DNA from: an uncultured Clostridia bacterium | GTDB lineage: Bacteria; Bacillota; Clostridia; Oscillospirales; Ruminococcaceae | Direction of reading: 5' to 3' | Assembly (NCBI GenBank): GCA_947629945.1 | Contig: CANRFR010000008.1 | Span: 1-46,164 of the forward strand | DNA: 46,164 bases | Program-made: the position numbers and the translations under genes | The notes under the pieces: model-generated | What the model was told of the DNA's origin: nothing | The model's database searches: none | The model's input: the letters and a program-made list of their open reading frames with translations, nothing else | Shown here: positions 157 through 30,155 of the stretch, in pieces | Layout of the letters: each line of letters starts with the position of its first letter | Position numbering within the stretch: the stretch's first letter is position 1

Positions 157-1521
157 ATGCTGGACGAAGTAACAAAAGAAAAAACGGAAAAAATCGCTCG
201 TGAAATATTGCAGAACGCGAAAAATAAGCTGCTTGTAAATCTGCGCTTTTTAGATGTGGCACTGAGCCGTCCAAAGCTGACTTCGGATGCGGAACACACC
301 ACATCTTGTGCAACGGACGGCGAAGTGTTTCTCTACGCGGCGAAATTCGTGCTGTCCACCTATAGAGTTGAACCCGATCTGGCGACAAGAAACTTTCTGC
401 ACATGATATTTCATTGCGTGTTTCGGCATATGTTCGTGAATACGCTTATTAACCGCGAACTGTGGGATATCGCGTGCGATATAGCCGTGGAAAGCGTAAT
501 AAACGATTTGCGGCTTGATTACCTCACTACGCTTAAATCGGGACAGCAAGAGCAGTTTTTAAGCGGCTTTAAGGACAAAATCAAAACGCTTTCCGCGGAG
601 AAAATATACAGATTTCTGCTTGACCAAAAGCTGCCTCAAAAGTCGATAGACGGATTGGGTATGCTGTTCAAAGCGGACGACCACTATCTCTGGTACCTCA
701 CCGACGAACAAAAAGCCGCGCTTAAAATTCCCGGTTACGGCGACGGAGAAAACGCCGAAACGCTCTCTCAAGCCAACGGGGAAATATTTGGCGCGTCTGC
801 GGATTGGGAGCAGATTGCGGAACGTATGCAGGTAGACTTGGAAACATTCGGAAAACAGCGGGGAATTGAAGCGGGGCTGCTGACACAAAATCTCCGCGAG
901 GTAAACCGCGAACGCTACAACTACACGGAATTTTTAAAAAAGTTCGCGGTGCGCGGCGAGATAATGAAAATAAACCCCGACGAGTTCGACTACAATTATT
1001 ACACCTACGGTCTGAACCTATACGAAAATATGCCGCTTATCGAACCGCTGGAATACAAGGACGTCAAGGCTATCCGCGAGTTTGTTATCGCCATAGACAC
1101 CTCCGGTTCCACCTCGGGAGAGCTTGTGCAGAAGTTCGTGCAAAAAACCTATAACATTCTCAAAAGCGCCGAGAGCTTCTTCACAAAAATAAATCTGCAT
1201 ATTATCCAATGCGACGCGGCTATTCAAGAGGATGTCCGCATAACCTCGCAAGAGGAGTTTGACAATTATCTCAGGAATATGAAAATACACGGTTTGGGCG
1301 GCACGGACTTCAAGCCCGTTTTCAGTTATGTGAATTCTCTGGTGGATACGGGCGAGTTCTCGAACCTCAAAGGACTTATTTACCTGACCGACGGCTATGG
1401 TGCGTTCCCGAAAAAAAAGCCGCCGTACGACGCGGCGTTCGTATTTATCGACGACGAAAACAACAACTACGACGTGCCCGCATGGGCGATAAAGCTGGTG
1501 CTTAGGAGAAACGAGATATGA
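157..1521 (+). CDS. Metallopeptidase-like / von Willebrand A domain protein (DUF2201-type)
   Basis: A 454-residue cytoplasmic protein with no signal peptide. The N-terminal half resembles the putative metallopeptidase domain of DUF2201-type proteins: residues 81-91 contain H82, H86 and H91 in the pattern LHMIFHCVFRH. The usual HExxH glutamate is absent, so catalysis is doubtful. The C-terminal third (about 305-450) is a vWA domain with the MIDAS parts D314-T-S316-G-S318, the GGTD loop with T383/D384, and TDG at 411-413. Proteins of this architecture commonly pair with MoxR-like AAA+ ATPases. The ATG is preceded by AAGGAGA (144-150). The stop overlaps the next start (ATGA), which couples this gene to the ANK-LRR array downstream. 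The domain call is firm; the biological role is unknown. Confidence 0.85.
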   Translation: MLDEVTKEKTEKIAREILQNAKNKLLVNLRFLDVALSRPKLTSDAEHTTSCATDGEVFLYAAKFVLSTYRVEPDLATRNFLHMIFHCVFRHMFVNTLINRELWDIACDIAVESVINDLRLDYLTTLKSGQQEQFLSGFKDKIKTLSAEKIYRFLLDQKLPQKSIDGLGMLFKADDHYLWYLTDEQKAALKIPGYGDGENAETLSQANGEIFGASADWEQIAERMQVDLETFGKQRGIEAGLLTQNLREVNRERYNYTEFLKKFAVRGEIMKINPDEFDYNYYTYGLNLYENMPLIEPLEYKDVKAIREFVIAIDTSGSTSGELVQKFVQKTYNILKSAESFFTKINLHIIQCDAAIQEDVRITSQEEFDNYLRNMKIHGLGGTDFKPVFSYVNSLVDTGEFSNLKGLIYLTDGYGAFPKKKPPYDAAFVFIDDENNNYDVPAWAIKLVLRRNEI

Positions 1522-2780
1522 CACACTATTCTTTGAAAACAGAATACGGAGCGTTGGACATTCTTTTCAAAGCTATCGTGACTCTTGACAAAAAGCGCGT
1601 TCAAGAATTGAAAGAGAGAGGTGTTACACTCTCCGAAAACGTGCGGAACGTTCTTTCAAACGGCACGGGAAAAGGTCGAGCCGAAAACCCCGCATATAAA
1701 TTTTGGTTTGCGCTCTTACGTGAAATAAAAACAATGTCTACAGAGGATTTTTCCGAAATAGCTTCTATGCTGCGCAAAGAAACGGACAAGCCGCTGTACT
1801 ATTCCGAAACATTGTGGATGTGGGGCAATAAGCGGGCTTTGGAACCGAGTTTTTTTGAAGTCACGCTAAAAAATTTCGACCAAAAGCGAATGCCGAAAAA
1901 ACACGCTATGAAACGCATTATCGACAGCGACAATCCCGGCTGTCTGCCGATATGCGAAAAGCACGGCTGGCTGAAAAATCCCAAGATCCGCGACGAGCTT
2001 ATCGACTACGCGTCGGAAAACGGCAAAACAGAAGCTGCCGCGTGGCTTTTGGAGTTCAAGAACCGCACTGCTGACCTCGCCGCCGAACGTGAACGCGCCG
2101 AAAAAAAAGTTCTTCGGGAATTAAATGCTGCTCCAACCTCCGTTACGATGATGAGGAAGTCTTGGAACTTTGAAAAGCGCGCGGATAGTTCTATAATCAT
2201 AACGGGCTACAGAGGTGAACGCACGGAAATCAACGTTCCCGATAAAATCGGCGGCTGCACTGTGACGGCAATAGGCGATTATGCTTTTTCGCCTGACGCT
2301 TATCGGGCAAGAAAGGTGCAGCGCACTGTACGGAGCACGATAACCAAGATAATTTTACCGAAGACGATAGAACGTATCGGAGAGTTTGCGTTTTTAAAGT
2401 GCAGGTCTTTGACAGAGATAAATCTCCCGGAAAAGCTCTTGGAGATAAGCAGGGGAATGATGTACCTCTCGGGCTTGGAGAGCATCGTTATAGGCGGAAA
2501 CATCAAAAAAATAGGCGCGGTGGCATTTTACGGCTGCCGCGGACTGAAATATGTGAAACTTTGCGAGGGCGTTTTGGAAATCGACGTGGCAGCGTTTTAT
2601 CTTTGTACCGAATTGGAAATCATAGTGCTGCCGCAGTCAATTGTAAAAATAGCCGCGTTCACAATGACCGACAGTCCGTTTTGGTGCTGTCAAAAGCTTA
2701 CCGCCGTTGTTCGGCGCGGCTCTTACGCCGAAAAATACTGCAAGGACAATAACATAGTTTACAAATACACGGAGGAATGA
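1518..2780 (+). CDS. ANK-LRR_5 array protein 1
   Basis: A 420-residue protein, first of nine tandem paralogues. An ankyrin-like start (about 12-38) is followed by helical sequence (55-125) and a second ankyrin-like segment (126-180). Then come the family signature KNRTADLAAERERAEKK (181-197), a beta segment ending in TAIGDYAFSP (250-259), about five BspA-type LRR_5 repeats (roughly 274-395), and a C-terminal cap containing GSYAEKYC. No signal peptide or membrane segment is visible, so it should be cytoplasmic. The start overlaps the vWA stop by ATGA. It is closest to array protein 2 in length and LRR content. LRR_5 and ankyrin repeats normally bind proteins; the ligand here is unknown. Confidence 0.85.
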   Translation: MTHYSLKTEYGALDILFKAIVTLDKKRVQELKERGVTLSENVRNVLSNGTGKGRAENPAYKFWFALLREIKTMSTEDFSEIASMLRKETDKPLYYSETLWMWGNKRALEPSFFEVTLKNFDQKRMPKKHAMKRIIDSDNPGCLPICEKHGWLKNPKIRDELIDYASENGKTEAAAWLLEFKNRTADLAAERERAEKKVLRELNAAPTSVTMMRKSWNFEKRADSSIIITGYRGERTEINVPDKIGGCTVTAIGDYAFSPDAYRARKVQRTVRSTITKIILPKTIERIGEFAFLKCRSLTEINLPEKLLEISRGMMYLSGLESIVIGGNIKKIGAVAFYGCRGLKYVKLCEGVLEIDVAAFYLCTELEIIVLPQSIVKIAAFTMTDSPFWCCQKLTAVVRRGSYAEKYCKDNNIVYKYTEE

Positions 2781-2781
2781 T

Positions 2782-4047
2782 ATGACGCATTATTCTTTGG
2801 AAACGGAATTCGGCGCGTCTGACGAGCTTTTCAAAGCAATAATAACGCTTAACAAAAAGCGCGTTCAAGAACTGAAAGAGATGGGTGTTACACTCACCGA
2901 AAAGGTGCGGAACGTTCTCGAAAACGGCGCCGGGCGATCGGTGAGCGTGGAAAATCCCGCTTATCAATTTTGGTTCTCACTGCTGCGCGAGATCAAAGAA
3001 ACGCCGATTAATGACTTCGCGGAATTCGCCGCGCTGCTACGCTCGGAGGTCGGCAAACCGCTTCACTACTCCGAAGCATTGTGGGTATGGGGAAACAAAC
3101 GGGCGTTCGAACCGCATTTTTTCAAGATCACTTTGGAGAATTTCAACCAAAAGAAAATGCCGAAAAAAATCGCTATGAAGCGCATAATAAATGAGGGAAA
3201 GCTCGACTGTATGCCGATATGTGAGAAGCATGGCTGGCTTAAAAATCCGAAAACGCGCGATGAGCTGATAGACTACGCTGCCGAACAAGGCAAAACGGAA
3301 ATCTCCGCGTGGCTGTTGGACTTCAAGAACCGCACCGCCGATCTCGCTCTGGAACGCGAACGCGCCGAGAAGAAAATGCAGCGCGAACTCAATGCCGACC
3401 CCAACTCCATTACAGAGTTACGAAAGATTTGGAAATTTGAAAAACGCGAGGACGACACAATAATTATATTGGGCTACAAGGGCGACCGCAGGGAGATAAC
3501 CGTTCCGGAAAAGATGGGCGGCTGTACCGTTACAGCACTCGGAGAATACGCGTTCTCGCCCTATGCCAAACGCATAAAAGCGGAACAGCGCGCTTTGCGG
3601 AAAGCGATCACCAAAATCGTTCTGCCGGATACGATAGAGAGCATCGGAGAGTTTGCGTTTTATCAATGCAAATCGCTGACGAGCATAAATCTCCCCGAAA
3701 AGCTCACCGAGATCAGCAAGGGTATGCTTGACATCACGGGTCTGGAAAGTATCGTTATCGGCGGTAACGTCAAGAAAATCGGCGGGGTGGCGTTTTGGGG
3801 CTGCCGTGATCTCAGATATGTGAAGCTCTGCGAGGGAGTTGCCGAGATAGACGTGGCGGCGTTCTATAACTGCGGGAATTTGGAAACGATAGAGCTGCCG
3901 CGCTCAATTAAAAAAATCGACCCGCAGAGTACATACGACGGTTCATTTTATAACTGCATAAGGCTCACGGCTTTGGTGCATAAAGGCTCATACGCGGAAA
4001 AGTATTGCGAGGAAAACAAGATAATTTACAAGTACGTGGAGGAATAA
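2782..4047 (+). CDS. ANK-LRR_5 array protein 2
   Basis: A 421-residue close paralogue of array protein 1, with the same order of parts. The N-terminus (MTHYSLETEFGASDELFKAI) is nearly the same. The signature KNRTADLALERERAEKK is present, followed by about five LRR_5 repeats and the GSYAEKYCEENKIIYKY cap. It starts one base after the previous stop; the end of the previous reading frame supplies a GGAGG site. The similarity to protein 1 over the whole length suggests a recent duplication. No secretion signal is present. The function is unknown beyond likely protein binding. Confidence 0.85.
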   Translation: MTHYSLETEFGASDELFKAIITLNKKRVQELKEMGVTLTEKVRNVLENGAGRSVSVENPAYQFWFSLLREIKETPINDFAEFAALLRSEVGKPLHYSEALWVWGNKRAFEPHFFKITLENFNQKKMPKKIAMKRIINEGKLDCMPICEKHGWLKNPKTRDELIDYAAEQGKTEISAWLLDFKNRTADLALERERAEKKMQRELNADPNSITELRKIWKFEKREDDTIIILGYKGDRREITVPEKMGGCTVTALGEYAFSPYAKRIKAEQRALRKAITKIVLPDTIESIGEFAFYQCKSLTSINLPEKLTEISKGMLDITGLESIVIGGNVKKIGGVAFWGCRDLRYVKLCEGVAEIDVAAFYNCGNLETIELPRSIKKIDPQSTYDGSFYNCIRLTALVHKGSYAEKYCEENKIIYKYVEE

Positions 4048-4049
4048 CT

Positions 4050-6176
4050 ATGGAATACTACTCAATTTCAAGCGTATACGGAAACCGCGACGAACTTTTC
4101 AAGGCGCTGATAACGCTTGACAAGGAGCGCGTGGAAGCCCTGAAAGCAAAAGGAGTTGCGCTTACCGACGACGTAAAAAACACGCTGCTGCACGGCGGCG
4201 GCTCGTTTATTTCGGGTTCGCCCGCGTCGGGGTTTTGGTACGGTTATCTTACCGACTTGGAGAATGTAGCGAAGTTGGATTTTGTATACATCTCGCGGGA
4301 GTTATTCGCGCAGACGTGCGAACCGCTTTACTTTTCCGACTCGTTAAATCAGGTGATAGCTAAATACTTTTTCAATCCCGAGGTGTTCACTTGCCTTTTG
4401 GAGTGCTACAATCAAAAAAAGCTGAACAAAACTCGGATAATGAAAGAACTTATTCGCAAGAACAACGTTCCGCTTTTGGAGAAATGCGCCGAGCACGGCT
4501 GGCTGAAGCAAACAAAAAAGCGCGATGAGATGATAGACTACGCCGCCGAGCAGAACCGCCCCGAATGCACGGCGTGGCTTCTCGAGTTTAAGAGCCGCAC
4601 CGCCGACCTCGCCGCCGAGCGCAAAAAAGCCGAAAAGAAACAGCTTGCCGAGTTGAACGCCGCACCCGATTCCGCAGCGGAACTCAAAAAGCTATGGACT
4701 TGGGAAAAGGGCGAGGACGGCGGACTTATTATCAAGAGCTACAAGGGCGACAAGACAGAAGTCGAAATACCCGCGAAGATCGGCAAGAACAGCGTTACCG
4801 CGATAGGCGGTTACGCGCTGTCACCCGAGGCTCCGCGACTTCCGAACGACAGCGTTAAGCGCCGCGCCGCGATACAAAAAATCGTCGTGCCCGACAGCGT
4901 GAAAAAGATAGGAGAAAGCGCTTTCGGCGGCGTGGGATATTATCATTGGACAAACACCCCCTCGCAGCTTAAAGAACTCGTTATCCCCGACACGCTCGAC
5001 ATTTTTAACGACATTGAAGCCGCAAAGAGCGCGCCGCGTTTTCTCGCAAAGTGCGGCATAGATGTTCTTGTCGTGCCCGACACGCCCGCCGCGCGGTACT
5101 ACTGTATAAAAAACAACGTCCAATTCCGCTTTGAAAAATGCGGCGAACTACATACCCCGTTTAAAGAAATCATCAAATCGGACGAGCTGTTTGCCGCGAT
5201 ACTCGCTGTCGATAAAGAAAAGGTTGAGAAGCTGAAAGGCTCGGGCTTTCCGGACTACATCAAGGAATGTCTGCAAAACGAACTTTACGGCATTATGTAC
5301 TACGTTCAGCGGGAAATTGCGGATATTATCGCAAAGGCAAGCGCCGATGACAGGCGGTATATTTTGGAAAACCTCGTTCGGGAACTCGGAGAGCCGCTTT
5401 ACTGCACCAACCTCATATACTCGTTGGACAAATCGCCCGAATTATGGAACTGCTTGCTGAAATTCTTCGACACGAAGCGCATTAACAAAACTGACGAGAT
5501 GAAGCGCTTTATCAACAAAGATCAGGTGGAGTATCTCGCGGTATTTGCGGAAAACGGCTGTCTCAAAAATTCCGCGACCCGCGACAAGCTTATACAATAC
5601 GCCACGGAAAACAACAAGACCGAATGTACGGCGTGGCTGCTTGATTACAAGAACCGCACCTCCGACCCCGAAAAGGAGCGAAAACGCGCCGAGAAAAAAC
5701 TCGAACGCGAACTTAACGCGCCGCCGCCCACCGAGGAGGAACTTCGCGAAAAGTCGGACAAGCTGTTCAAGAGAATGTTTACTTATGAGATTGCAGACGG
5801 CGAGGTCGTGATAACAGGCTACAAGGGGAGCGCCGCTGAAGTCGAGATACCGAGGGAATTTGAGGGAAAGCCCGTTGTCGCTATCGGCGAGCAGGCGTTT
5901 TATCCGTCAGGCTCGGGAGTTCCCACGCGGCACAGACACAACCGCGCGAACGTCAAAAGGGTAGTATTCCCCGATACGGTTCGGACAATCGGCGATATGG
6001 CATTTTTAGGGTGCAACGCCTTGCGCGAGGTCGTTATACCAAGTTCCGTGACGAAGATCGGGAACAGAGCATTTTTGACCGGAGTGGCGATAACGTTTAT
6101 TGTGGAGCGCGGCTCGCTCGCCGAAAAATACTGCAAGGCAAACGGAGAAAAGATCGCATATAAGGTGAGCCTATGA
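4050..6176 (+). CDS. ANK-LRR_5 array protein 3, in-frame double unit
   Basis: A 708-residue protein made of two family units fused head to tail. The ATG at 4050 was chosen because it follows GGAGG and gives an N-terminus matching proteins 1 and 2. A longer in-frame extension to 4005 overlaps the previous gene. Unit 1 (1-365) has the signature KSRTADLAAERKKAEKK at 181 and only one to two clear LRRs before a cap (about 337-362). Unit 2 (about 370-708) restarts with an ankyrin-like segment, carries KNRTSDPEKERKRAEKK at 534, and ends with two LRRs and a cap (RGSLAEKYC). Unit 2 lacks the usual LAAE after the signature. The stop overlaps the next start (ATGA). Confidence 0.85.
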   Translation: MEYYSISSVYGNRDELFKALITLDKERVEALKAKGVALTDDVKNTLLHGGGSFISGSPASGFWYGYLTDLENVAKLDFVYISRELFAQTCEPLYFSDSLNQVIAKYFFNPEVFTCLLECYNQKKLNKTRIMKELIRKNNVPLLEKCAEHGWLKQTKKRDEMIDYAAEQNRPECTAWLLEFKSRTADLAAERKKAEKKQLAELNAAPDSAAELKKLWTWEKGEDGGLIIKSYKGDKTEVEIPAKIGKNSVTAIGGYALSPEAPRLPNDSVKRRAAIQKIVVPDSVKKIGESAFGGVGYYHWTNTPSQLKELVIPDTLDIFNDIEAAKSAPRFLAKCGIDVLVVPDTPAARYYCIKNNVQFRFEKCGELHTPFKEIIKSDELFAAILAVDKEKVEKLKGSGFPDYIKECLQNELYGIMYYVQREIADIIAKASADDRRYILENLVRELGEPLYCTNLIYSLDKSPELWNCLLKFFDTKRINKTDEMKRFINKDQVEYLAVFAENGCLKNSATRDKLIQYATENNKTECTAWLLDYKNRTSDPEKERKRAEKKLERELNAPPPTEEELREKSDKLFKRMFTYEIADGEVVITGYKGSAAEVEIPREFEGKPVVAIGEQAFYPSGSGVPTRHRHNRANVKRVVFPDTVRTIGDMAFLGCNALREVVIPSSVTKIGNRAFLTGVAITFIVERGSLAEKYCKANGEKIAYKVSL

Positions 6177-7720
6177 ATTACGAGAATATACCGCAGGAAA
6201 ACAAAGCCGAGATTTTGGAAAGCGCTGTGATAAACGGCTCTTCCGAAGAGATTGTGAAAACTTTCAAGGAACTCGGATACATAGAGATGACCGCCCGTGC
6301 GCTGGGTTTGGCTTGCCGATTTCGCGGAGTAGAGTTCGTGAAAACGCTCACGGAAAGCGGCGCGACATTCGACATTCCGAAAACCGAGGACGCGGAGCGC
6401 CGATATCACTGCTACTCCGGAGCAAAATGGAACAACTACCGCTCAAACTTCGCGCTGTATCTTCTTAACATAACAAAGCACATCAAAGGAGCTTGCTGCT
6501 GCAAAGGCTTAAAGCTCACGAAAAAAGCGGCGCGGCACGACAAAACTTTTCTGGACCAACTGTCCGACGACGAACGCGCCAAAGTTTTGATATATCTTTG
6601 CGAAAACGCAGAAAAGCTGTCGTTTGTACCCGAGGAAATGCTGTACTACGCGATATTTGCGCGGGATAATTTTATTGTTTCGGAACTGAAAAAACTCGGC
6701 GTGAAACTCTCGGAAAAGCGCGCAAATATTATAAAAAACGGCGGACCGATCTCAGACGGATATTGGTTTGAATGGTGTTCAATGCAACGAAAACTGTCGA
6801 ACGACAACTATCTCCCCGTAATGAGAACTATAGCCGCGGAACTTGGCGGAAGGCAGTTTCACTGCACGGGAAAAATCTACGATATAACAAAAACGCGCTT
6901 TGAAAACACGGAAATTCTTGAGTTCTTCCGCGACAATTTCAAGATAGCGCGGCTCAACAAAACACAGATAATACGCGACGTTATCAACGTAAACAACCCC
7001 GGCGCACTCATCGTTTTCGAGCAGCTGGGGTGGCTTTCCGATATTCGGCGGCGCGACGAGATGATAGATTACGCGCAAAAGTTCGGCAACAGAACGGAAT
7101 GTGTGGCGTGGCTTCTCGACTTCAAGAACCGCACCGCCGACCTCGCCGCCGAACGCGCCAAAGCCGAAAAGAAAATAGAAGCGGAACTCAACGCAAGCCC
7201 AACCTCCGTTGCCGTAATGAAAAAAATGTGGGGCTATAAAAAGCAGGAGGACGGAACGCTTATTATCACGAGTTACAAGGGAACAAGCACCGACATAAAA
7301 GTGCCCGAAAGGATAGGCAAGGGCACCGTTTCAGCGATAGGCATAGGGGCGTTTTCGGGGAACAGCGGAATGTGCGGCGGCAGAGTTACGACCTACGCAA
7401 CCTACGAACAGCAAAGACAGCGCCGCACAATAACGAAGATAACACTGCCCGAAACCGTGAAATATATCGAACAAAGCGCGTTCGCGGATATGGAGGCGCT
7501 CACGGAGATAAACATACCCGATGGTACGACCGAGATAGGCGGCGTGGCGTTTTATCAATGTCTTTCGCTGGAAACGCTTGTTATTCCAAGTTCTGTGGAG
7601 CGTATCGGAGTATACGCGTTTCGGAATTGCTACAAACTCACGGCAATCGTGGAGCGCGGGTCGTTCGCCGAAAAATACTGTAAGGAAAACGGAGTTAAAT
7701 TCAAATATAAGGAGCAATAA
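6173..7720 (+). CDS. ANK-LRR_5 array protein 4 (long N-terminus class)
   Basis: A 515-residue family member with an extra N-terminal module of about 150 residues that proteins 1-3 lack. This module contains the ankyrin-like stretch TARALGLACRFRGVEFVKTL and a second helical block starting YLCENAEKLSF. The shared core follows: ankyrin-like segment, KNRTADLAAERAKAEKK, the beta segment TAIG-like GTVSAIGIGAF, about three LRR_5 repeats, and the cap GSFAEKYCKENGVKFKY. A stretch rich in Gly, Tyr and Arg interrupts the beta segment and first LRR. The start overlaps the preceding stop. It is cytoplasmic by sequence. The role is inferred only as a binding protein. Confidence 0.85.
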   Translation: MNYENIPQENKAEILESAVINGSSEEIVKTFKELGYIEMTARALGLACRFRGVEFVKTLTESGATFDIPKTEDAERRYHCYSGAKWNNYRSNFALYLLNITKHIKGACCCKGLKLTKKAARHDKTFLDQLSDDERAKVLIYLCENAEKLSFVPEEMLYYAIFARDNFIVSELKKLGVKLSEKRANIIKNGGPISDGYWFEWCSMQRKLSNDNYLPVMRTIAAELGGRQFHCTGKIYDITKTRFENTEILEFFRDNFKIARLNKTQIIRDVINVNNPGALIVFEQLGWLSDIRRRDEMIDYAQKFGNRTECVAWLLDFKNRTADLAAERAKAEKKIEAELNASPTSVAVMKKMWGYKKQEDGTLIITSYKGTSTDIKVPERIGKGTVSAIGIGAFSGNSGMCGGRVTTYATYEQQRQRRTITKITLPETVKYIEQSAFADMEALTEINIPDGTTEIGGVAFYQCLSLETLVIPSSVERIGVYAFRNCYKLTAIVERGSFAEKYCKENGVKFKYKEQ

Positions 7721-7722
7721 TT

Positions 7723-9111
7723 ATGGATATGTCCGAAAGACTTTACGCGGCTATCTTACAGCGAAGCTTCGCGGGCGCGGACAATATGATAAAGGCGGGC
7801 GCTACTCTTGACGGGGTAATCCGCGACGCGCTCGTGAAAGGTCCGAGCAGCGCCGCGCACTTTATAAAGGCGCAATACAACGCCTACGGGCAATTCATCG
7901 ACTTTGCGAAGAGCGCGTCGCCCAAGGACTTCGCCGCGGTTTCGGAAAAGCTGTTCGGACTTATCGGTGAGCCGCTTTACAACACGTTCGGGGAATATCG
8001 CTACGGTTTTTTCAAAGACCGCTTTTTCGACCCCGTGTTTTTCGAGGCGCTCCTGAAATTCTTCAGCGGAAAACAAATGCGCAAACAGATGACTATGAAA
8101 GAGATCATAGACCGCGGCGACGTAAAGCTGCTGGAACTTTGCGCGAAATACGGCTGGCTGAAAATGCCGCGTATCCGCGACGCTATGATAGATTACGCGA
8201 ACGAAAAGAACAGCACCGAGTGTACCGCGTTCCTTTTAGATTTCAAGAACCGCACCGCAGACCTTGCCGCCGAACGCGCCCGCGCCGAGAAGCGTATGCT
8301 CCGCGAGCTGAACGCGAACCCGAACTCGCTTACCGAACTTAAAAAGGTGTGGGGATTTGAAACACGCGAGGACGGTACGCTTGTCATCACGCGTTACAAG
8401 GGCAAGCGCACGGAAATTGACGTGCCCGAGAAGATCGGAAACGACGTTGTCGCAGCTGTCGGAGCATACGCGTTTTCTCCTATGGCTCCCCGTTTGAGCA
8501 ACGAACAGGGAGATCTGCGGCACAGGATAACGAAAATAAATCTTCCCGACAGCGTCCGCGAAATCGGCGAATGTGCGTTTTATCATTGCTCAAATCTTGG
8601 CGGGGTGAATATTCCAAACGGTGTAACCGTCATAAACAGAGATGTTTTCACCGGCACGGCGATAGAGCATCTTGAACTTCCCGAAACGGTGGAAGAAATC
8701 GTCGATTACGGATTTTCGGTCGTGAAATTCAAAGAAATAAAGCTGCCGAAAAAACTCAAAGCAATAGGAAAATCGGCGTTTCAGTGGTGTGTATTCGAGC
8801 GCGTGGAAATTCCCGAGGGGATAACCGTGATAATGAAGGGAACGTTTTGGCAGTGCGAAAAGCTGAAAGAGGTCGTGCTGCCCGATGGTATGGAAACGAT
8901 AAAGGCTCGTGCGTTCTGGAACTGTCCCGAGCTTGAAACAATAAACCTCCCCGCTTCGATAAAGAAAATCGAGAACTACAAGCGCGGCGGCAAAATGTGC
9001 AGCGTTTTCGCCGACAGCCCTAACCTCACGGCAATTGTGGAACGCGGCTCTTACGCCGAAAAGTACTGCGCGAAGAACGGCGTTAAATTTGTGTACAACG
9101 ACGAGGTATAA
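7723..9111 (+). CDS. ANK-LRR_5 array protein 5
   Basis: A 462-residue member of the short N-terminus class. The N-terminal 40 residues (MDMSERLYAAILQRSF onward) diverge from proteins 1-3, but the core is typical: the segment ending KYGWLKMPRIRDAMIDYA, KNRTADLAAERARAEKR, and the beta segment with VGAYAFSP. About six LRR_5 repeats follow, a longer solenoid than most siblings, with the GSYAEKYC cap at the end. The preceding gene provides AAGGAG (7709-7714) and ends two bases before this ATG. It fits a set in which LRR number varies while the flanking parts stay fixed. Confidence 0.85.
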   Translation: MDMSERLYAAILQRSFAGADNMIKAGATLDGVIRDALVKGPSSAAHFIKAQYNAYGQFIDFAKSASPKDFAAVSEKLFGLIGEPLYNTFGEYRYGFFKDRFFDPVFFEALLKFFSGKQMRKQMTMKEIIDRGDVKLLELCAKYGWLKMPRIRDAMIDYANEKNSTECTAFLLDFKNRTADLAAERARAEKRMLRELNANPNSLTELKKVWGFETREDGTLVITRYKGKRTEIDVPEKIGNDVVAAVGAYAFSPMAPRLSNEQGDLRHRITKINLPDSVREIGECAFYHCSNLGGVNIPNGVTVINRDVFTGTAIEHLELPETVEEIVDYGFSVVKFKEIKLPKKLKAIGKSAFQWCVFERVEIPEGITVIMKGTFWQCEKLKEVVLPDGMETIKARAFWNCPELETINLPASIKKIENYKRGGKMCSVFADSPNLTAIVERGSYAEKYCAKNGVKFVYNDEV

Positions 9112-9113
9112 CT

Positions 9114-10928
9114 ATGATAATTTCAAATAGTCTTGAAACATCGGTGCTGCTCGACAGTCCGGAAGAAGCGGCGGCGCTTTGCCGAAAGCTGCGAAAGGGC
9201 GAGAACTCTTGCCGAGCGCTGGGGCTGGCGTGCCGTTTCCGCGGTATGGAAACGGTGAGGGCGCTTGTTGAAAGCGGCGCTACTTTTAAATACAATCGTT
9301 CGTCCGAAAACGAGTTTATCGGATATTCCAAAATAAAATATTGGCTTGCGCTGTTTGAGAGAAACGGCGCTATGAAAAACGCTTATTTTCAAAACCGCGG
9401 AGACGGGTGTTTCAACAATAAATTCTCGTTTATGGACGTCAGACACGCGGCAATGAAAACCTTTGTCGTTCTGCCGATAGAACAGCGCGCCGAAGTCGTC
9501 CGCTATCTCTGCGAAAACAGCGAACGCGTTGATATCGAGCCGGGCGAACTTCTTTTCTACTCGATAATGAGCGGCAGCAAGAAAATCACTGCCGTTTTGA
9601 GGGAGCACGGCGCAAAGTTCTCCGAGAAGCGCGTGACGGGACTTACCGAGGACGGGCGGAGCGTTGAGTGGATGGAGTTCGCTTCTATGCTGGACTTGCT
9701 CGGCGACGAAGAATATGTCGAGGTCGTGAAGCAGCTCCACACGGAGCTTGACGGAAAACCGCTCCACTACACCAACAATATCTATTGGGGGAACTACGGT
9801 TATCATCGGATATTCCGAATGTTCAAGCCGGAATTTTTCCGAATAATACTTGAAAACTTCAATCAAAAGAAAATGAACAAAACTCAAATTATGAAAGGGG
9901 CTATAGACAACAACTCTGCGGAGTGTCTGGAAATCTGCGCGGATTACGGGTGGCTGAAGCAACCTAAGAAACGCGACGAGATGATAAAATACGCGTCAGA
10001 TAACGGCAAGACCGAGTGCTCGGCGTGGCTTCTGGACTTTAAAAACCGCACCGCAGACCTCGCCGCTGAACGCGAGAAAGCCGAGAAGAAAATGATGGCG
10101 GAGCTTAACGCCGACCCGAATTCCGTCTCGGAACTTAAAAAGCTGTTCGCTTATGAAACGCGAGAGGACGGCACGCTTATCATCACGCGTTACAAGGGAA
10201 CGCGGACGGTTGTCGAGGTGCCGGAGAAAATCGGCAAATCCACGGTGACCGCGATAGGCAACCGCGCGTTTTCAACGGGGCAAGCGCGGTTGAAATTCGA
10301 GCAGAGCGAAGCGCGGAGAAATATAACAAAGATCACTCTGCCCGAGACCGTAACGGAGATAGGCGAGGGCGCGTTTTTCGATTGCTTTGAACTGCGAGAG
10401 GTAAATATCCCGCGCGGCGTTAAAGAGATAAAGGCGAACACATTCGCCGCTTGTAAAAGTCTTTCGGAACTCGATATTCCCGAGGGCGTTAAGTCGATTG
10501 GCGACAGCGCGTTCTCAAACTGTCAAGCGCTGTCGAAGATAAATCTGCCGGATGGTATCCCCGAGATATGCGATTATATGTTGAGCGGGTGTATGTCTCT
10601 GAAAACGATAACTTTGCCGAAAAGTATCGAGAAAATCGGCAAGTGGGCGTTTCGAGACTGCAAAGCTTTGGAGACTCTTGAAATTCCCGACGGCGTTACG
10701 GAAGTCAACATTCTCGCGTTTGCGGACTGTATGGGGCTGAAAACGATAATCTTGCCCGCTTCTATCAAGAAAATGAAAAACTACACTTATAGAGGAACCG
10801 CCCCGCAGACTGTTCTCCACAACACAGAAACCGTTGTCACCGCCGTTGTGGAGCCGAAAAGCTACGCGGAGAAATACTGCAAGCGCAACGAAATCAAATT
10901 CGTTTATAAGGAGAACGGCGATGAGTAA
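9114..10928 (+). CDS. ANK-LRR_5 array protein 6 (longest LRR solenoid)
   Basis: A 604-residue member of the long N-terminus class. The extra module has RALGLACRFRGMETVRALVE followed by a second helical block (VVRYLCENSERVDIEPGELL). The core has KNRTADLAAEREKAEKK and the beta segment with TAIGNRAFS. Around seven LRR_5 repeats follow, each of the form I-x2-LP-x3-V-x2-I-x4-F-x2-C, before a cap containing KSYAEKYC. It starts two bases after the previous stop (weak GAGG site) and overlaps the next gene by eight bases. No signal peptide is present. The number of repeats, the largest in the array, should give the widest binding surface. Confidence 0.85.
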   Translation: MIISNSLETSVLLDSPEEAAALCRKLRKGENSCRALGLACRFRGMETVRALVESGATFKYNRSSENEFIGYSKIKYWLALFERNGAMKNAYFQNRGDGCFNNKFSFMDVRHAAMKTFVVLPIEQRAEVVRYLCENSERVDIEPGELLFYSIMSGSKKITAVLREHGAKFSEKRVTGLTEDGRSVEWMEFASMLDLLGDEEYVEVVKQLHTELDGKPLHYTNNIYWGNYGYHRIFRMFKPEFFRIILENFNQKKMNKTQIMKGAIDNNSAECLEICADYGWLKQPKKRDEMIKYASDNGKTECSAWLLDFKNRTADLAAEREKAEKKMMAELNADPNSVSELKKLFAYETREDGTLIITRYKGTRTVVEVPEKIGKSTVTAIGNRAFSTGQARLKFEQSEARRNITKITLPETVTEIGEGAFFDCFELREVNIPRGVKEIKANTFAACKSLSELDIPEGVKSIGDSAFSNCQALSKINLPDGIPEICDYMLSGCMSLKTITLPKSIEKIGKWAFRDCKALETLEIPDGVTEVNILAFADCMGLKTIILPASIKKMKNYTYRGTAPQTVLHNTETVVTAVVEPKSYAEKYCKRNEIKFVYKENGDE

Positions 10929-12333
10929 CCAAAAATCTGAAAAGGAACTTGCTGCGAGATCTAAAGAACTGGAATACGCGGCGACAAATCTCTCGGCGGA
11001 GGAAATAGCGGAAACTTACGCTCGGCTCGGCGAGGTGGAGTACACGGCGCGGGCGCTCGGGATAGCGTGCCGCTTTCGCGGAGTGGAATGCGTGAGGGCG
11101 CTTGTGGAGGGCGGTGCAAGTTTTCACGCGCCGCTTACCAACTATATGTACCAGACCTACGGCAGTTACGGCGACGATCTTTCGGTATTGCTGCTTGATA
11201 ATTTCCCCGACCGGACTATAACGTATTTCGTTGTAACGCGGCAGATTTACAAATCGGTGACGTGCGCGGACGGCTCGGCGCTTTCGCCGCTGCCGTTTGA
11301 GGAACGCGTTAAAGTCGTCGATTATCTGAACGAACACGCTGAACAGGTCGAATTCGACTTGGGCGAGCTTTTGTATTTCGCGATAATGTTTAACGACCTG
11401 CGTATGACAAAGGCTCTCGAACAGCGCGGCGCAGGATTTTCCGAGCAGCGCGTAAAAACGCTTGCGGAAAAGGGAAAGCCGAAAGACTTGTGTATCTGGA
11501 CGTGTCTGCTGGAGCGGCTTTCCGCCGAAAATTTTGTGACCGTATTAACACGTATAGTTGAGAAGGTCGGCGGGAAACTCCATTGTACCGACGGCGTTTA
11601 CAAAGCGTGTGAAGACAAGCTGTACACGTTTGAAAATCTTGATTTTTACTTTAACAATTTTGAGCCGCCGAAGATAAACAAAACAGACGTGATGAAGCGT
11701 TCAATAGACCTCGGCAGTGTGAGCGGACTGCAATTTGCGGAAAAGTCGGGCTGGCTTGCTCCGAAAAAGCGCGACGAAATGATAGCTTACGCAAACGAAA
11801 AAAACGCCATCGAGTGTACGGCATGGCTGTTGGACTTCAAGAACCGCACCGCCGATCTCGCAGACGAACGAAAAAAAGCGGAGAAGAAAATCGAGCGCGA
11901 GCTTAACGCGAACCCTAATTCCGCGGCGGAACTGCGAAAAGTCTGGAGCTTTAAAAAGCTCGAAGATGAAACGCTCATCATTACGAACTACCGAGGTAAG
12001 CAAACAAAGATAACCGTTCCCGCGAAAATCGGGAAAAGCGCAGTGACCGCGATAGGCAAAGAAGCATTTTCGCCGTTTCGTAGCAGAGTGTGTCACGGAC
12101 GTGAGTTCTTTAGGACGATCACCGAAATAACGCTGCCCGACGGCATTGCCGAGATCGGCGAAATGGCATTCGACAGCTGTCTCGCGCTGACGACAGTCGT
12201 TGTTCCGAAAAGCGTATCGGTTATCGGCAAAGCGGCGTTTGCCAACTGCAAGGGGCTGACCGTAACGGTCGAGCGCGGCTCTTATGCCGAGGAGTACTGC
12301 CGAGAAAACGACGTTAAATTTGAGGAGAAATAA
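10921..12333 (+). CDS. ANK-LRR_5 array protein 7 (long N-terminus, short LRR)
   Basis: A 470-residue member. The ATG at 10921 was chosen because it follows AAGGAG and overlaps the end of the previous gene in the manner of its neighbours; a longer frame from 10834 lies inside the preceding gene. The N-terminal module has TARALGIACRFRGVECVRAL and a second block (VVDYLNEHAEQVEFDLGELL). The core has KNRTADLADERKKAEKK. Only about two LRR_5 repeats remain before the cap GSYAEEYCRENDVKF. It shows how far the solenoid can be shortened while signature and cap are kept. Confidence 0.85.
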   Translation: MSNQKSEKELAARSKELEYAATNLSAEEIAETYARLGEVEYTARALGIACRFRGVECVRALVEGGASFHAPLTNYMYQTYGSYGDDLSVLLLDNFPDRTITYFVVTRQIYKSVTCADGSALSPLPFEERVKVVDYLNEHAEQVEFDLGELLYFAIMFNDLRMTKALEQRGAGFSEQRVKTLAEKGKPKDLCIWTCLLERLSAENFVTVLTRIVEKVGGKLHCTDGVYKACEDKLYTFENLDFYFNNFEPPKINKTDVMKRSIDLGSVSGLQFAEKSGWLAPKKRDEMIAYANEKNAIECTAWLLDFKNRTADLADERKKAEKKIERELNANPNSAAELRKVWSFKKLEDETLIITNYRGKQTKITVPAKIGKSAVTAIGKEAFSPFRSRVCHGREFFRTITEITLPDGIAEIGEMAFDSCLALTTVVVPKSVSVIGKAAFANCKGLTVTVERGSYAEEYCRENDVKFEEK

Positions 12334-12334
12334 G

Positions 12335-13558
12335 ATGGACGAACTTCACAAATTCGCGCTGTCAACAGACAAAAGCTATGCTCCCCGTGAGGACGAACAA
12401 AATACGATAACGAAAATACAGTACGAGTTCTGCGTGAAAATGCAAAGCGCCGAGGAAAGCGAATTTATAGAGACCGCAAGAAAACTCCGCGCCGAGTTGG
12501 ACTCCCCCATTCTTTATTTCAAGTCTATCTTCAAAAGCGGCGTTCCGAAATTCATACAAAGTACAGCGCTTTTGAAATGCGTTATTGAGTGCTTTGACTG
12601 TTCGCAAATCAACAAGAAGAAGCTAATGCAGAGTTACACAGACGCTGACAAAGTGGATTTATTGGAGGTCTGTATAAAACACGGCTGGCTTGAACAACCG
12701 AAAAAGCGTGATGAGCTTATAGACTACGCGAACCAAAACGGCAAGACGGAAGCCGAAGCATTCTTGCTTGACTTCAAGAACCGCACCGCCGATCTCACCA
12801 CAGAGCGCGAGAAAGCCGAGAAAAAACAAGAACGAGAACTCAACGCCGCGCCTGATTCCGTCACGGCGCTAAAGCAGATATGGAGTTATAAGAAACGCAA
12901 TGACGGCACGCTTATGATCACGGGTTACAAGGGCACGCGCACCGAGGTCGTTGTGCCCGAACATATCGGGAAAAACATTGTGACGGCGATAGGCAAAAAC
13001 GCGTTCTGCCCGTTCGCCGCAAGAGTGACGAACGAAGCTAAAGAAACGCGAAAAGCGATAACGAGGATAACCTTGCCCGAGACTGTTCGTTCAATAGAGG
13101 ACGGCGCGTTTTGGGATTGCGAAAATCTAATCTCGGTGAACATTCCCGAGAGTGTTAAAATGATAAACAAGAACACCTTTGCCGAGTGCCGCAAGCTCGA
13201 AAACATCGTCATTCCGACAGGTGTTAAGCGCATTGAAGAACGGGCGTTCTATTGCTGCAATTCACTTAAATTTCTTATAATTCCCGAGGGCGCGGAGTTT
13301 ATCGGCGACAATGCGTTTGCGCTGTGCGATAAGCTTATCACGGTGGTTCTGCCGAGTACGCTTAAAATGATCGGATATAACGTCATCAGCCGTCACATAA
13401 AGCCAATCGGGATAGTCGCGCCAAACGGTTCTTACGCCGCGGGCTACTGTGAGAAAAACGGACTGCCGTACGCGAACGCCGCAAGAAAAGTAACGCCCCG
13501 CAGCAAAGCCGAGGAATATTGCAGGGATAAAAATATACCGTATATTTATAAGGAGTAA
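12335..13558 (+). CDS. ANK-LRR_5 array protein 8 (short N-terminus, doubled cap)
   Basis: A 407-residue member, the shortest in the array. The ATG at 12335 lies one base after the previous stop and follows GAGGAG; an earlier in-frame start at 12284 overlaps the preceding gene. It lacks the first ankyrin-like repeat of its siblings and begins MDELHKFALSTDKSYAPRED. The core has KNRTADLTTEREKAEKK, then about five LRR_5 repeats. The end is odd: one cap (GSYAAGYCEKNGLPYANAAR) is followed about 20 residues later by a second (SKAEEYCRDKNIPYIYKE). This suggests an internal duplication of the cap or a fusion with the tail of another copy. Confidence 0.85.
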   Translation: MDELHKFALSTDKSYAPREDEQNTITKIQYEFCVKMQSAEESEFIETARKLRAELDSPILYFKSIFKSGVPKFIQSTALLKCVIECFDCSQINKKKLMQSYTDADKVDLLEVCIKHGWLEQPKKRDELIDYANQNGKTEAEAFLLDFKNRTADLTTEREKAEKKQERELNAAPDSVTALKQIWSYKKRNDGTLMITGYKGTRTEVVVPEHIGKNIVTAIGKNAFCPFAARVTNEAKETRKAITRITLPETVRSIEDGAFWDCENLISVNIPESVKMINKNTFAECRKLENIVIPTGVKRIEERAFYCCNSLKFLIIPEGAEFIGDNAFALCDKLITVVLPSTLKMIGYNVISRHIKPIGIVAPNGSYAAGYCEKNGLPYANAARKVTPRSKAEEYCRDKNIPYIYKE

Positions 13559-13561
13559 GCG

Positions 13562-13660
13562 ATGAACAAACTTTACTACGCGCTCCCTCGAAACGATAAA
13601 CTCATTGATTGGTTAGCGTTCAGCACCTGTCGAGCGCTGTGTGAAAGCGAGGACGTATGA
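13562..13660 (+). CDS. Small ORF (32 residues) inside the array
   Basis: ATG at 13562 is preceded by AAGGAG with good spacing, and the TGA at 13658-13660 overlaps the ATG of the next gene (ATGA), exactly like the larger genes here. The peptide starts MNKLYYALPRNDK and ends LCESEDV. It has no transmembrane segment and no clear match to the family core. It could be a real coupled peptide, a leader allowing translation to reach array protein 9, or the remnant of a lost family member. The spacing and start signals are what support it. Confidence 0.45.
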   Translation: MNKLYYALPRNDKLIDWLAFSTCRALCESEDV

Positions 13661-15138
13661 AGGCTTGGGAGAAAATTGAAAAGCTCGAAATGAGCGTTAT
13701 GCAAGACAGCACAGACAACGCGGCGGCGCTTTATGACACGCTCGGAGAGATGCCGTTTACGGCGCGGGCATTGGGGCTTGCGTGCCGCTATCGCGGACTT
13801 GAAATGACGAGACTTCTTGTCGAACGCGGCGCGGCGTTCGCGTTTGATATGGAAAAGCTGAAACCCGTACTGATACACGCGCGGTATTTTTGGTTGGATT
13901 TGTACGGCGATGAAAACTACTCGCTAGGACTGCTGAGTACTGTTGCGCGCCGGGAAACGTATGAACTGAACAACATAGGAAAAATGCACTGCGGGGTAAG
14001 TCTCGTTTCGTCAAGCGAACGGTTGCAGACGCTTGATTTTTTTCTCAAAAACGCGAAGAAAATCGGCTTCAAGGCGGACGAGTTTTTGTTTTACGCGTAC
14101 CTCGCCAACGAACGCGAAATGATAGATTTTCTGAAAAGTAAAGGCGTTCGCGCGTCGAAGCGTCTCTTAAAAATAATCACCGAGGGGGCGAACAACGACG
14201 ACTGGCTAAACTATTGCTTTCTTACGGGCAAGCTCACCGACGGAGAATTTTTGCGAGAAATGGGAGCAATTGCAGAGGAATGCGGCGGAAAGAAACTTCA
14301 TTTTACAGAAAAATTTTGGGAGTACAACTCGAGCCGTTTCGAGAAACCCGAATTATTCAAATTTCTGCTTGAACATTTCAATCAAACGAAGATGAACAAA
14401 ACTAAACTTATGAAGAATATCATCGAGCGCGACGATGTGGAGTGCCTTGAACTCTGCACGGAAAACGGCTGGCTTAAACTTCCGAAAAAACGCGACGAAA
14501 TGATAGCGTTCGCCGTCGACAACGAAAAAGCCGAGTGCTCGGCGTATCTTTTAGACTTCAAGAACCGCACTGCCGACCTCTCCGCCGAGCGCGCCAAAGC
14601 CGAAAAAAAGCTGGAACGCGAATTGAACGCCGACCCTAATTCCGTCAGCGAATTAAAGAAAATCTGGAAGTACAAAAAGCGCGAGGACGGCTCGATAATC
14701 ATTACGGGCTACAAGGGAAACCGCACGGAAATTACCGTTCCCGATAAAATCGGCAAATCGCCTGTCACCGCAATAGGCGAATACGCTTTTTCACCAAACG
14801 CTCCGCGCGTCACCGAGGAACAGGCTCTGACGCGCTGTCGAATAACAAAGATCACGCTCCCCGAAACTGTTGTGACTATCGGCGAGGACGCATTCGGCGG
14901 CAGCGGCGCTTGCGCGGTCAAAGGACTGTTCAACGCGTTTTCCGACCTTGCCGAAATCAACCTGCCAAAGAGCTTGGAATTTTTCGCAAGCCGCGAAGCC
15001 GCAGAAAAAGCACCCAAAATTTTCCGCAACTGCAAAAAGCTTACCGTAAAAATACCTCGCTCGCCTTATGCGCGAATGTACTGCAAAAGGCTCAATGTTG
15101 CTTTCGAGTTTTACGGAGGAAATTATGACTTTAAGTGA
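13657..15138 (+). CDS. ANK-LRR_5 array protein 9 (long N-terminus, degenerate LRR)
   Basis: A 493-residue member and the last full one. The N-terminal module has TARALGLACRYRGLEMTRLL and a second helical block. The core has KNRTADLSAERAKAEKK and the beta segment TAIGEYAFSP. After the first LRR (ITKITLPETV) the repeats are irregular, interrupted by a Gly/Ala-rich loop and a stretch similar to the end of unit 1 of protein 3 (EAAEKAPKIFRNC compared with EAAKSAPRFLAKC). The cap is weak (SPYARMYCKRLNVAFEF). The start overlaps the small ORF's stop. It is cytoplasmic by sequence. Confidence 0.85.
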   Translation: MKAWEKIEKLEMSVMQDSTDNAAALYDTLGEMPFTARALGLACRYRGLEMTRLLVERGAAFAFDMEKLKPVLIHARYFWLDLYGDENYSLGLLSTVARRETYELNNIGKMHCGVSLVSSSERLQTLDFFLKNAKKIGFKADEFLFYAYLANEREMIDFLKSKGVRASKRLLKIITEGANNDDWLNYCFLTGKLTDGEFLREMGAIAEECGGKKLHFTEKFWEYNSSRFEKPELFKFLLEHFNQTKMNKTKLMKNIIERDDVECLELCTENGWLKLPKKRDEMIAFAVDNEKAECSAYLLDFKNRTADLSAERAKAEKKLERELNADPNSVSELKKIWKYKKREDGSIIITGYKGNRTEITVPDKIGKSPVTAIGEYAFSPNAPRVTEEQALTRCRITKITLPETVVTIGEDAFGGSGACAVKGLFNAFSDLAEINLPKSLEFFASREAAEKAPKIFRNCKKLTVKIPRSPYARMYCKRLNVAFEFYGGNYDFK

Positions 15139-15211
15139 AGACAATGTTCGGCATGGTTGTTGGACTACTCGAACCGCGCACGAAAATAATTTGCCGATTG
15201 CGCTTGACTAA
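15125..15211 (+). CDS. Small ORF (28 residues) ending the array
   Basis: ATG 15125 follows a strong GGAGG (15115-15119) and lies inside the last codons of array protein 9, out of frame. The peptide begins MTLSEDNVRHGCW, which faintly recalls the TLSENVRN stretch near the start of array protein 1. It may therefore be the remnant of a tenth paralogue, or chance. The stop overlaps the -35 box of the next promoter. Expression is plausible because of the ribosome site; the function is unknown. Confidence 0.35.
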   Translation: MTLSEDNVRHGCWTTRTAHENNLPIALD

Positions 15212-16517: not shown

Positions 16518-17354
16518 TCAAAAGATAACGCTGCATTTTGGTATCTTTTCGCACAAAAGACAGATATCCTTTTGGGAAGTGTTTTGCAGTCCGCGTATGT
16601 CTAACTCTTCCAAATTCGTGAACTCAAACAGCACATCAATGCTTTTCAAGGCGCAGTGACACAATTCCAGCTTTCGCAGCTTTTGAAAATCCTTTATCGG
16701 CGAAAGTTCTATATCGTTAGTCCAACTTAAATTGATATCTTCCAAATTCGGCAGCGATATCAGCGGGTCCAGCTTCGTTGAAAACCACAGGCTGCTTAAA
16801 TCGAGCTTCTTCAAATTCACAAGCTCGGCAAGCGGTTGTACGGTTTTCGTGCTAAGCTGCAATAAGCACAGTTCCTCAAGCTGCGTTAGCGTGCCGATGA
16901 GTTTCAGATCATCTAAGCTGTCGGATATGTCTAAATCGCGGAGACGGCGAAGTTTGGGCAGCTTTTTCAGCGGCTCAAGACTTTTATACGCGCAGCTCAC
17001 ATCCAGATATTCGAGCGGCAGACCCTCAAGCGGCTTTATATCGCGTACTTTCTCACAGTCGAGAACAAGCGAGCGCAGTTCCGACAGCTTTGACAACGGT
17101 TTGACGCTTTTTACGAGCGTTCCCGAAAGGTTCAGTTCGGTAAGCTTTGTGAGTTTGGCAAGCGGCTTTATATCGGTCAAATCGAGGTTGTTCAACAAAT
17201 TCAGCGAATGCAATTCGGTAAGCTTTTCAAGAGAGGAAATATCGGTAACGTCTGACCACGACAAATCAAGTTCCGTTATTTCATCAGGGTGTTTAAGTCC
17301 GCTTATCCACCCGCGAAGCTCTCCGTCGGTAAAGTCTGTGGATTTGAATTTCAT
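16518..17354 (-). CDS. Internalin-like LRR protein, cytoplasmic
   Basis: About 278 residues made almost wholly of 22-residue LRRs of the LRR_4/internalin type (L-x2-L-x-L-x-L..I-x-PL-x-L-x-KL). This differs from the LRR_5 type of the array at the left end. There is no signal peptide, LPxTG or membrane anchor, so it is probably an intracellular binding protein. ATG at 17354 was chosen because AGGTGA, overlapping the stop of the preceding gene, lies eight bases upstream. An earlier ATG at 17378 overlaps that gene and has no ribosome site. It is the third gene of a unit with the alpha-galactosidase and zinc-ribbon genes. The partner is unknown. Confidence 0.75.
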   Translation of the reverse strand: MKFKSTDFTDGELRGWISGLKHPDEITELDLSWSDVTDISSLEKLTELHSLNLLNNLDLTDIKPLAKLTKLTELNLSGTLVKSVKPLSKLSELRSLVLDCEKVRDIKPLEGLPLEYLDVSCAYKSLEPLKKLPKLRRLRDLDISDSLDDLKLIGTLTQLEELCLLQLSTKTVQPLAELVNLKKLDLSSLWFSTKLDPLISLPNLEDINLSWTNDIELSPIKDFQKLRKLELCHCALKSIDVLFEFTNLEELDIRGLQNTSQKDICLLCEKIPKCSVIF

Positions 17355-17359
17355 ACCCG

Positions 17360-24706: not shown

Positions 24707-24707
24707 A

Positions 24708-24941: not shown

Positions 24942-24942
24942 A

Positions 24943-25380: not shown

Positions 25381-25408
25381 ATTCTGTTTCCTTTATCTCT
25401 TAAAGCAA

Positions 25409-26032: not shown

Positions 26033-26054
26033 TTAAAACACCTCCTGCGTAATA

Positions 26055-26063
26055 ATTATATCA
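26055..26063 (-). promoter_or_regulatory. Possible extended -10 promoter inside the flagellar operon
   Basis: Minus strand TGATATAAT (26063-26055) fits TGnTATAAT. No good -35 is visible, and the leader would be only about 15 bases. It could give FliW/CsrA expression independent of the sigma-28 promoter. Confidence 0.3.
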
Positions 26064-28351: not shown

Positions 28352-28366
28352 TTATCGTTCCCTCCG

Positions 28367-30136: not shown

Positions 30137-30155
30137 AAATTTTATCCTCCGCTTG

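Follow-up and report, generated by a model that had tools for sequence, protein, structure and literature searches.

A vWA gene and a nine-gene ANK-LRR_5 array as candidate parts of a three-part clostridial remodelling system

The window analyzed here is an entire contig of 46,164 nucleotides (C8) from the genome of an uncultured Clostridia bacterium (G000; 2.75 Mb in 206 contigs). It opens with a gene for a von Willebrand factor A (vWA) protein that overlaps the first of nine tandem genes, whose products combine an ankyrin (ANK) part with leucine-rich repeats (LRRs) of the LRR_5 family—an arrangement reported in the initial annotation and borne out by our analysis (vWA gene at 157–1521, array to 15138). 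In related genomes, the vWA gene occurs together with a gene for a MoxR-like ATPase and with partner genes sharing an ankyrin-like module. Judged from sequence, the parts are a DUF2201 vWA protein with an intact metal-ion-dependent adhesion site (MIDAS), a MoxR-like AAA_5 ATPase and module-bearing third components; together they may constitute a three-part intracellular remodelling system, in which the array would supply interchangeable specificity subunits for one motor. We assign this reading a probability of about 0.5.

Array architecture and linkage across genomes

The features of the locus are listed below (L068 is one of the related loci nearest to the window; b5 and b6 are array genes of L068).

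157–1521, + strand: vWA gene, 454 amino acids (aa); Pfam DUF2201 (E = 2.7e-13) and DUF2201_N (E = 2.2e-6)
1518–2780, + strand: ANK-LRR_5 paralogue 1, 69% identical to paralogue 2
1827–2072, + strand: example of the shared ankyrin-like module, ending AAAWLLEFKNRTA
2782–4047, + strand: ANK-LRR_5 paralogue 2; L068 orthologue 89% identical in both halves
4050–6176, + strand: ANK-LRR_5 paralogue 3, two fused units with two module matches
6173–7720, + strand: ANK-LRR_5 paralogue 4, N-terminal form long
7723–9111, + strand: ANK-LRR_5 paralogue 5
9114–10928, + strand: ANK-LRR_5 paralogue 6, with the strongest LRR_5 match of the array and Ank_2 above the Pfam cut-off
10921–12333, + strand: ANK-LRR_5 paralogue 7; against L068 b6, LRR half 89% and ANK half 44% identical
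12335–13558, + strand: ANK-LRR_5 paralogue 8; against L068 b5, ANK half 77% and LRR half 42% identical
13657–15138, + strand: ANK-LRR_5 paralogue 9, LRR degenerate; against L068 b6, ANK half 76% and LRR half 51% identical

All nine array starts are taken at ATG; for paralogue 7, the mechanical open reading frame (ORF) start at 10918 lies 3 bases 5' of the preferred ATG at 10921. The spacings from the vWA gene to paralogue 9 are −4, 1, 2, −4, 2, 2, −11 (−8 from the ATG), 1 and 98 bases, so that the description of genes joined by overlaps or gaps of a few bases holds at eight junctions (−11 to +2) and breaks down before gene 9, where the 98-base gap is the sole larger one. The array ends at 15138 and not at 15211, as first proposed, and its nine genes amount to ten units, gene 3 being a fused double unit. 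LRR_5 scores above the Pfam cut-off in 8/9 array proteins and slightly below it in the ninth (23.7 vs 27.7 bits), while Ank_2 has matches with E ≤ 0.01 in genes 3, 6 and 9 and passes the cut-off only in gene 6. As the initial annotation had it, a KNRTADLA-type block is present in all nine proteins; the C-terminal cap, described there as fixed, has a variant in gene 9, and the LRR number, given as about two to seven, does vary, with 1–6 units per gene by a crude pattern. The predicted cytoplasmic location agrees with a hydropathy scan (no dedicated signal-peptide predictor was run), in which the first 45 residues contained no strongly hydrophobic stretch in any of the ten proteins, vWA and array together.

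The vWA protein consists of DUF2201_N followed by a DUF2201 vWA domain, with no Pfam match beyond DUF2201_N and DUF2201/VWA and no recognised fused effector domain; its profile gave no match among solved structures. Across 48 chosen homologues, the MIDAS is complete (D314-x-S316-x-S318, T383 and D412, all five residues kept in 48/48 rows), and H82, H86, H91 and D108 of the N-terminal part are invariant. DUF2201_N carries an HxxxHxxxxH motif without the glutamate of HExxH: Glu occupies that position in 0/48 rows, whereas HExxH is retained in 13 of 14 control DUF2201 loci. DUF2201_N of the window protein is therefore probably a pseudo-metallopeptidase, and we infer that the metal site of the subfamily is either dead or structural.

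To place the locus in a broader context, we examined a set of 80 loci (L068–L147), the best of 205 relatives in a scan of named genomes; many are metagenome bins, the counts include relatives and ORFs were called mechanically. A six-frame profile search detected the ATPase in 60 loci, a repeat or module partner in 65, both in 49 and neither in 4. The linkage of vWA gene and partner hence recurs across related genomes (65/80 loci with a partner), and the lack of recurrence that the initial annotation named as a refutation does not apply. The partner is adjacent in 62/80 loci, a count that follows a different rule from the 65, which refers to a partner anywhere in the locus. It lies between vWA and ATPase in 30 loci, only after the ATPase in 12 and directly before the vWA gene in 14 (overlapping categories). 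Genes with LRR, ANK or module matches account for 81 of the 135 same-strand genes adjoining vWA or ATPase, versus 12 of 420 genes at least three genes away—a group from which genes continuing an array were excluded. Among 14 control DUF2201 loci, of which three belong to relatives and the other eleven sample the phylum at large, none had such a neighbour within 6–15 kb, and partner linkage extends over records of Oscillospiraceae, Lachnospiraceae, Christensenellaceae, Anaerovoracaceae and Erysipelotrichaceae. No other neighbour cluster, antisense ORFs aside, was common to more than 6 of 83 loci; an 11-locus cluster considered as a recurrent fourth gene ran antisense to vWA or ATPase genes in the cases compared, and was discarded as an artefact of the greedy ORF picker.

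The AAA_5 ATPase and its absence from the window assembly

In related genomes, the ATPase is a protein of about 505 aa with an AAA_5 domain, and its Walker A and B motifs, recognised by eye, are conserved in 12 aligned rows. Three subfamily members score above the cut-off for AAA_5 and below it for bpMoxR, with no AAA_3 match at E ≤ 0.01; among solved structures, the ATPase profile matches the P-loop region only. The same 11 of 41 genomes match both vWA and ATPase, and if strong matches alone are counted (E < 1e-40 for vWA, E < 1e-80 for the ATPase), vWA is found in 10 of 41 genomes and the ATPase in 9 of those 10—the exception being G000. Two weak matches in a further genome (G026) belong to a separate DUF2201/AAA pair.

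The expectation that a MoxR-like ATPase would lie upstream of the vWA gene was right as to the pairing, which exists in relatives, and, in those relatives, wrong as to the position. The gene follows the array at its 3' end in G021 and G018, and comes after a single short partner in G020, after the vWA gene with the array divergent in G006 and directly after vWA in G014. An upstream ATPase is thus not the arrangement of the relatives read, and in the window the contig starts only 156 bp 5' of the vWA gene. Of the ATPase-less loci among the 80, 9 of 20 were tested, and the ATPase lay elsewhere in the genome in 9/9; 8 of the remaining 11 end less than 2.5 kb from the vWA gene.

At L068, L069 and L070 (the last in G024), the loci nearest to the window, ATPase and array lie on different contigs, and the ATPase adjoins a gene called by eye as a flavin reductase, the L068 copy of which is 92% and 84% identical to its two counterparts. 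The nearest G000 copy reaches only 62–64% identity over its better part, with no ATPase adjoining it; the C17 region in which it lies was accordingly rejected as the ATPase site. Because this neighbour gene, too, lacks a close copy in G000, an assembly gap seems likelier to us than a loss of the ATPase alone. The genome does contain a second DUF2201_N/AAA pair (C128; L062:3–2396), which has HExxH and no repeat partner within 6 kb. With its ATPase only 25–26% identical and no LRR neighbour, this pair was set aside as a candidate for the missing partner.

Shared module and exchange of LRR halves

Partners with differing LRR layouts share a segment of about 70–85 aa ending like A-x-L-L-D-Y-K-N ("ALLLDYKN"), a stretch resembling a diverged final ankyrin repeat. 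What partners have in common is this module and not LRRs alone. A profile (A2) built from 26 such segments was searched across the order, in 118 near-complete genomes, as the independent test of the module: the module was detected in 12 genomes, vWA in 13 (E < 1e-40; 16 at 0.001) and both in 11, a co-occurrence with a hypergeometric P of 1e-12, uncorrected for relatedness. Of the 12 module matches, those in G101 (8e-4) and G121 (3e-4) are weak. Nine of the 12 genomes were outside profile training, and in 8 of these a copy lies beside vWA. Seven of the genomes outside training, all of family f13, have the module directly upstream of vWA, and the order LRR partner–vWA–ATPase is seen in L170, L171, L177 and L178 (G101, G121 and G139 not included).

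In some loci, the module of the third component is joined to BRCT, DUF4132 or DUF6273 parts instead of LRR_5, the latter two being families of unknown function. Partners with DUF4132 or EFTL-type tails occur in eleven loci, with Pfam DUF4132 matched in the eight that were scanned. Proteins with the module close to the C-terminus frequently finish in a short acidic-hydrophobic tail (EFTLD, MFRL, RFEL, SFNL or TYDL). The pattern [FLMYIW]x[LIF]x(0-3), picked after inspecting the tails, fits 26 of 38 distinct C-terminal-module proteins versus 82 of 481 background ORFs. A strongly hydrophobic stretch within the first 45 residues was seen by hydropathy in just 1/142 module proteins.

Some module, ANK-LRR or DUF4132 genes were also observed apart from vWA genes. 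The window genome encodes two module-LRR proteins away from the array, at L168:7606–8472 (C7, tail ...DSRFSL) and L169:2687–3742 (C73, tail ...DKFDLK). At L048:8476–15302 (G021, its own contig C7), again away from vWA, an ANK-LRR gene stands beside a SWIM zinc-finger protein and two similar proteins of 610–613 aa, the one scanned matching HEAT_2. The sole DUF4132 copy of the window genome, a 1711-aa ORF at L226:4754–9889 (C56), was rejected as a part of its system, since no vWA, ATPase or module is found on that 14-kb contig.

The array type corresponds to one supported clade in a tree of 88 vWA proteins, from which L140, L143 and vWA pieces shorter than 250 residues were left out (24 rows, 22 of them labelled ANK; support 100/99), and this clade spans records of Oscillospiraceae and Lachnospiraceae. 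The ANK label itself is not monophyletic—six more rows with this label fall outside the clade and at least 7 changes are forced—probably owing to additional hits of the ANK profile on the shared module. The 23 loci nearest to the window hold 0–6 array genes as seen, some truncated, versus nine here. L068, with the same cation-efflux gene downstream, has six array genes, the last of which (b6) shares 76% identity with gene 9 in its ANK half and 89% with gene 7 in its LRR half. Gene 8, when set against L068 b5, likewise pairs a similar ANK half (77%) with a dissimilar LRR half (42%), and the DNA match at 11766–12474 begins a little ahead of gene 7's KNRTADLA block and extends into gene 8.

Reciprocal best hits over 105 genome pairs were discordant between the ANK C-terminal segment and the LRR in 49/102 cases, compared with 33/147 between two parts of the ANK half (Fisher P 3e-5; the pairs are not independent, and part of the discordance is noise, as LRR halves are poorly conserved). 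On these comparisons, array paralogues swap LRR halves with one another, the join lying near the KNRTADLA block. The ratio of nonsynonymous to synonymous substitutions (dN/dS) is about 0.1–0.4 throughout the array—an average well below 1, by which positive selection in the LRRs was rejected—and points to shuffling, not hypermutation. The diversified repertoire of the initial annotation is thus upheld in the sense of reassortment between paralogues only.

Interpretation and comparison with known systems

In the proposed three-part remodelling system, the shared module, together with the helix or tail behind it, would dock on the vWA MIDAS and/or the ATPase, by analogy with CbbQO, where a client carboxylate and the client C-terminus are involved. 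Recombination next to the docking block would exchange LRR halves among paralogues, different LRR halves would bind different protein targets, and ATP hydrolysis would remodel or release either the target bound by the LRR or the LRR protein. In the window genome, the third component is amplified to nine closely spaced genes. Sequence by itself does not tell apart an adaptor role of the ANK-LRR proteins from a client role. We also entertain, tentatively, the more specific idea of a multi-gene intracellular recognition repertoire resembling nucleotide-binding LRR receptors, in which LRR cassettes would be recombined at a fixed docking block and one shared vWA/AAA+ motor would read them all—a strategy that would require neither hypermutation nor a fused NTPase.

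Several observations weigh against the remodelling system as proposed. Among the 80 loci, 11 have the ATPase without a detected third component. In the phylum sample, the subfamily member L217 combines vWA and ATPase with no partner; the diverged pair of G016 (L047) lacks LRR and ANK neighbours and scores only weakly for the module; and G014 has no array-type match. In the order-wide search, G077 has the module without vWA, and G156 and G128 have vWA without a module match, albeit with an LRR-matching gene directly before vWA in G156. The G000 assembly itself contains no subfamily ATPase, its sole match being the 26%-identical protein on C128. The related loci are not independent; the earlier locus-wide module model had proteins of vWA loci as its training set, which makes module counts within those loci partly circular. 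The post hoc choice of the tail pattern counts in the same direction, as does the noise in the LRR discordance, and array-type proteins match the tail pattern in only 12/82 cases, close to background.

The nearest competitor reverses the roles: the ANK-LRR proteins would be substrates that need vWA and ATPase for folding, assembly or activation, as cNOR needs NorQD, so that the LRR proteins would do the sensing or scaffolding and the machine would be their dedicated chaperone. We consider this possible. MoxR/vWA pairs of known function serve dedicated clients (NorQD, CbbQO and RavA–ViaA, in the sources as far as available), the recurrence of a conserved tail or module across proteins that differ in other respects (DUF4132, BRCT, LRR) would suit a client tag, and the separation of array and ATPase onto different contigs in the genomes of L068–L070 is compatible with it; the model alone, however, leaves the amplification and LRR shuffling of the array clade unexplained. 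More doubtful is a role in conflict or defence, in which the LRRs would sense phage or foreign proteins and vWA and ATPase would set the response threshold, as proposed for VMAP systems. The core pair is the same as in proposed ternary conflict systems (PMC7159879, in its available part), copy number varies between relatives, LRRs are shuffled and the array clade crosses two families' records. Yet the defence role suggested in the initial annotation, while possible, gained no direct support: PADLOC matched 0/10 window proteins (vWA plus array), no viral contig gave a confirmed match to the vWA or an array protein, plasmids, searched with vWA only, gave none either, and no recognised effector domain was found in the window proteins or the partners scanned. 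Carriage by phages or plasmids was rejected, with no copy confirmed; dN/dS below 1 and the lack of a further recurrent neighbour also count against defence.

Two further accounts fare far worse. An array of BspA-type surface adhesins with an incidental vWA gene is very unlikely: the LRR_5 family match and weak, partial matches to the NCBIfam adhesin HupY favour it, but the latter fall far under the cut-off and the hydropathy scans of array and module proteins run counter to export. Chance linkage, by which abundant LRR_5 genes would adjoin vWA through genus synteny only, is scarcely credible and was already disfavoured. LRR_5 genes are indeed common (46 matches in the window genome), and array gene 1 is matched in 38 of 41 relatives, chiefly through its LRR part; the enrichment of partners next to vWA or ATPase, the linkage across five families' records and the module profile in the order genomes nevertheless argue against mere synteny. 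Overall, the sequence observation behind the initial annotation is confirmed and its interpretation supported in part.

The remodelling system fits a broader pattern, as MoxR–vWA ternary systems combine a MoxR-like AAA+ ATPase, a vWA protein and a system-specific third component, described for VMAP, iSTAND and TERNS3 with variable modules (PMC7159879, PMC8195603; available parts of both). Here, by contrast, the third component joins an ankyrin-like module to LRR_5, the vWA carries DUF2201_N, no effector is matched and the hosts are clostridial; no match bearing the names VMAP, iSTAND or TERNS3 was seen in the partners scanned, with a library not checked for such models. In its available part, PMC7159879 does not mention DUF2201, ankyrin or leucine-rich repeats, LRR appearing once, within a reference, and PMC8195603 mentions LRR and ankyrin, though not as parts of MoxR–vWA systems. 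In the rubisco activase CbbQO, an AAA+ motor likewise works with a VWA substrate adaptor, whose MIDAS, complete here too, binds an acidic client residue, the client C-terminus also being important; its clients are defined rubiscos, no LRR or ANK partner family is mentioned, and the region preceding the CbbO VWA is described as having no homology to characterised proteins (PMC4660213, as available). Ternary systems with diversity-generating retroelements resemble the array in their proposed diversified sensors linked to MoxR ATPases (PMC10907252, as available), whereas diversity here appears due to recombination between paralogues.

By annotation, the yehI-yehL-yehM-yehP-yehQ cluster of E. coli K-12 also places a MoxR-type ATPase and a VWA gene next to a DUF4132 gene, but its VWA is CoxE-like and no LRR is annotated; YehL and YehP were rejected as orthologues, the ATPases sharing only local P-loop similarity and the vWA similarity being marginal. 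Ordinary DUF2201 vWA/AAA pairs, which we take to be of the COG3864 type, share DUF2201_N and have a neighbour matching the ATPase profile in 12/14 control loci, and they differ in the retained HExxH and in the lack of LRR, ANK or module neighbours noted above. Within the open-access literature, subscription papers being outside its scope, the matches listed contained no description of a vWA/AAA_5/ANK-LRR linkage in the text available. With no ankyrin/LRR_5 third component or DUF2201 found in what was available of published MoxR–vWA ternary systems, the locus apparently represents an undescribed variant.

If the proposal is correct, an ankyrin-like module tied to LRRs would be a new class of third component, and MoxR–vWA systems would gain a place among clostridia, a good many of which come from animal guts. 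The docking of module or tail to the MIDAS is a concrete hypothesis, testable with few purified proteins, and LRR halves swapped around a conserved joint would give bacteria a counterpart of modular immune receptors or of interchangeable adaptors.

Downstream of the array, the window continues with the cation-efflux gene on the same strand and, beyond it, genes of other Pfam families. Just past the cation-efflux gene lies a gene for an LRR_4 protein of 286 aa on the strand opposite to the array (16518–17378, −). Flagellar cap and hook genes follow at 21662–30241 (−), encoding FliD (1024 aa), a protein of 730 aa that matches Flagellin_N and an FlgK-like protein of 624 aa. Genes for RNA polymerase alpha, an M24 peptidase and SecY occupy 34520–41067 (−), a stretch that presumably resembles part of a housekeeping ribosomal and translocation cluster.

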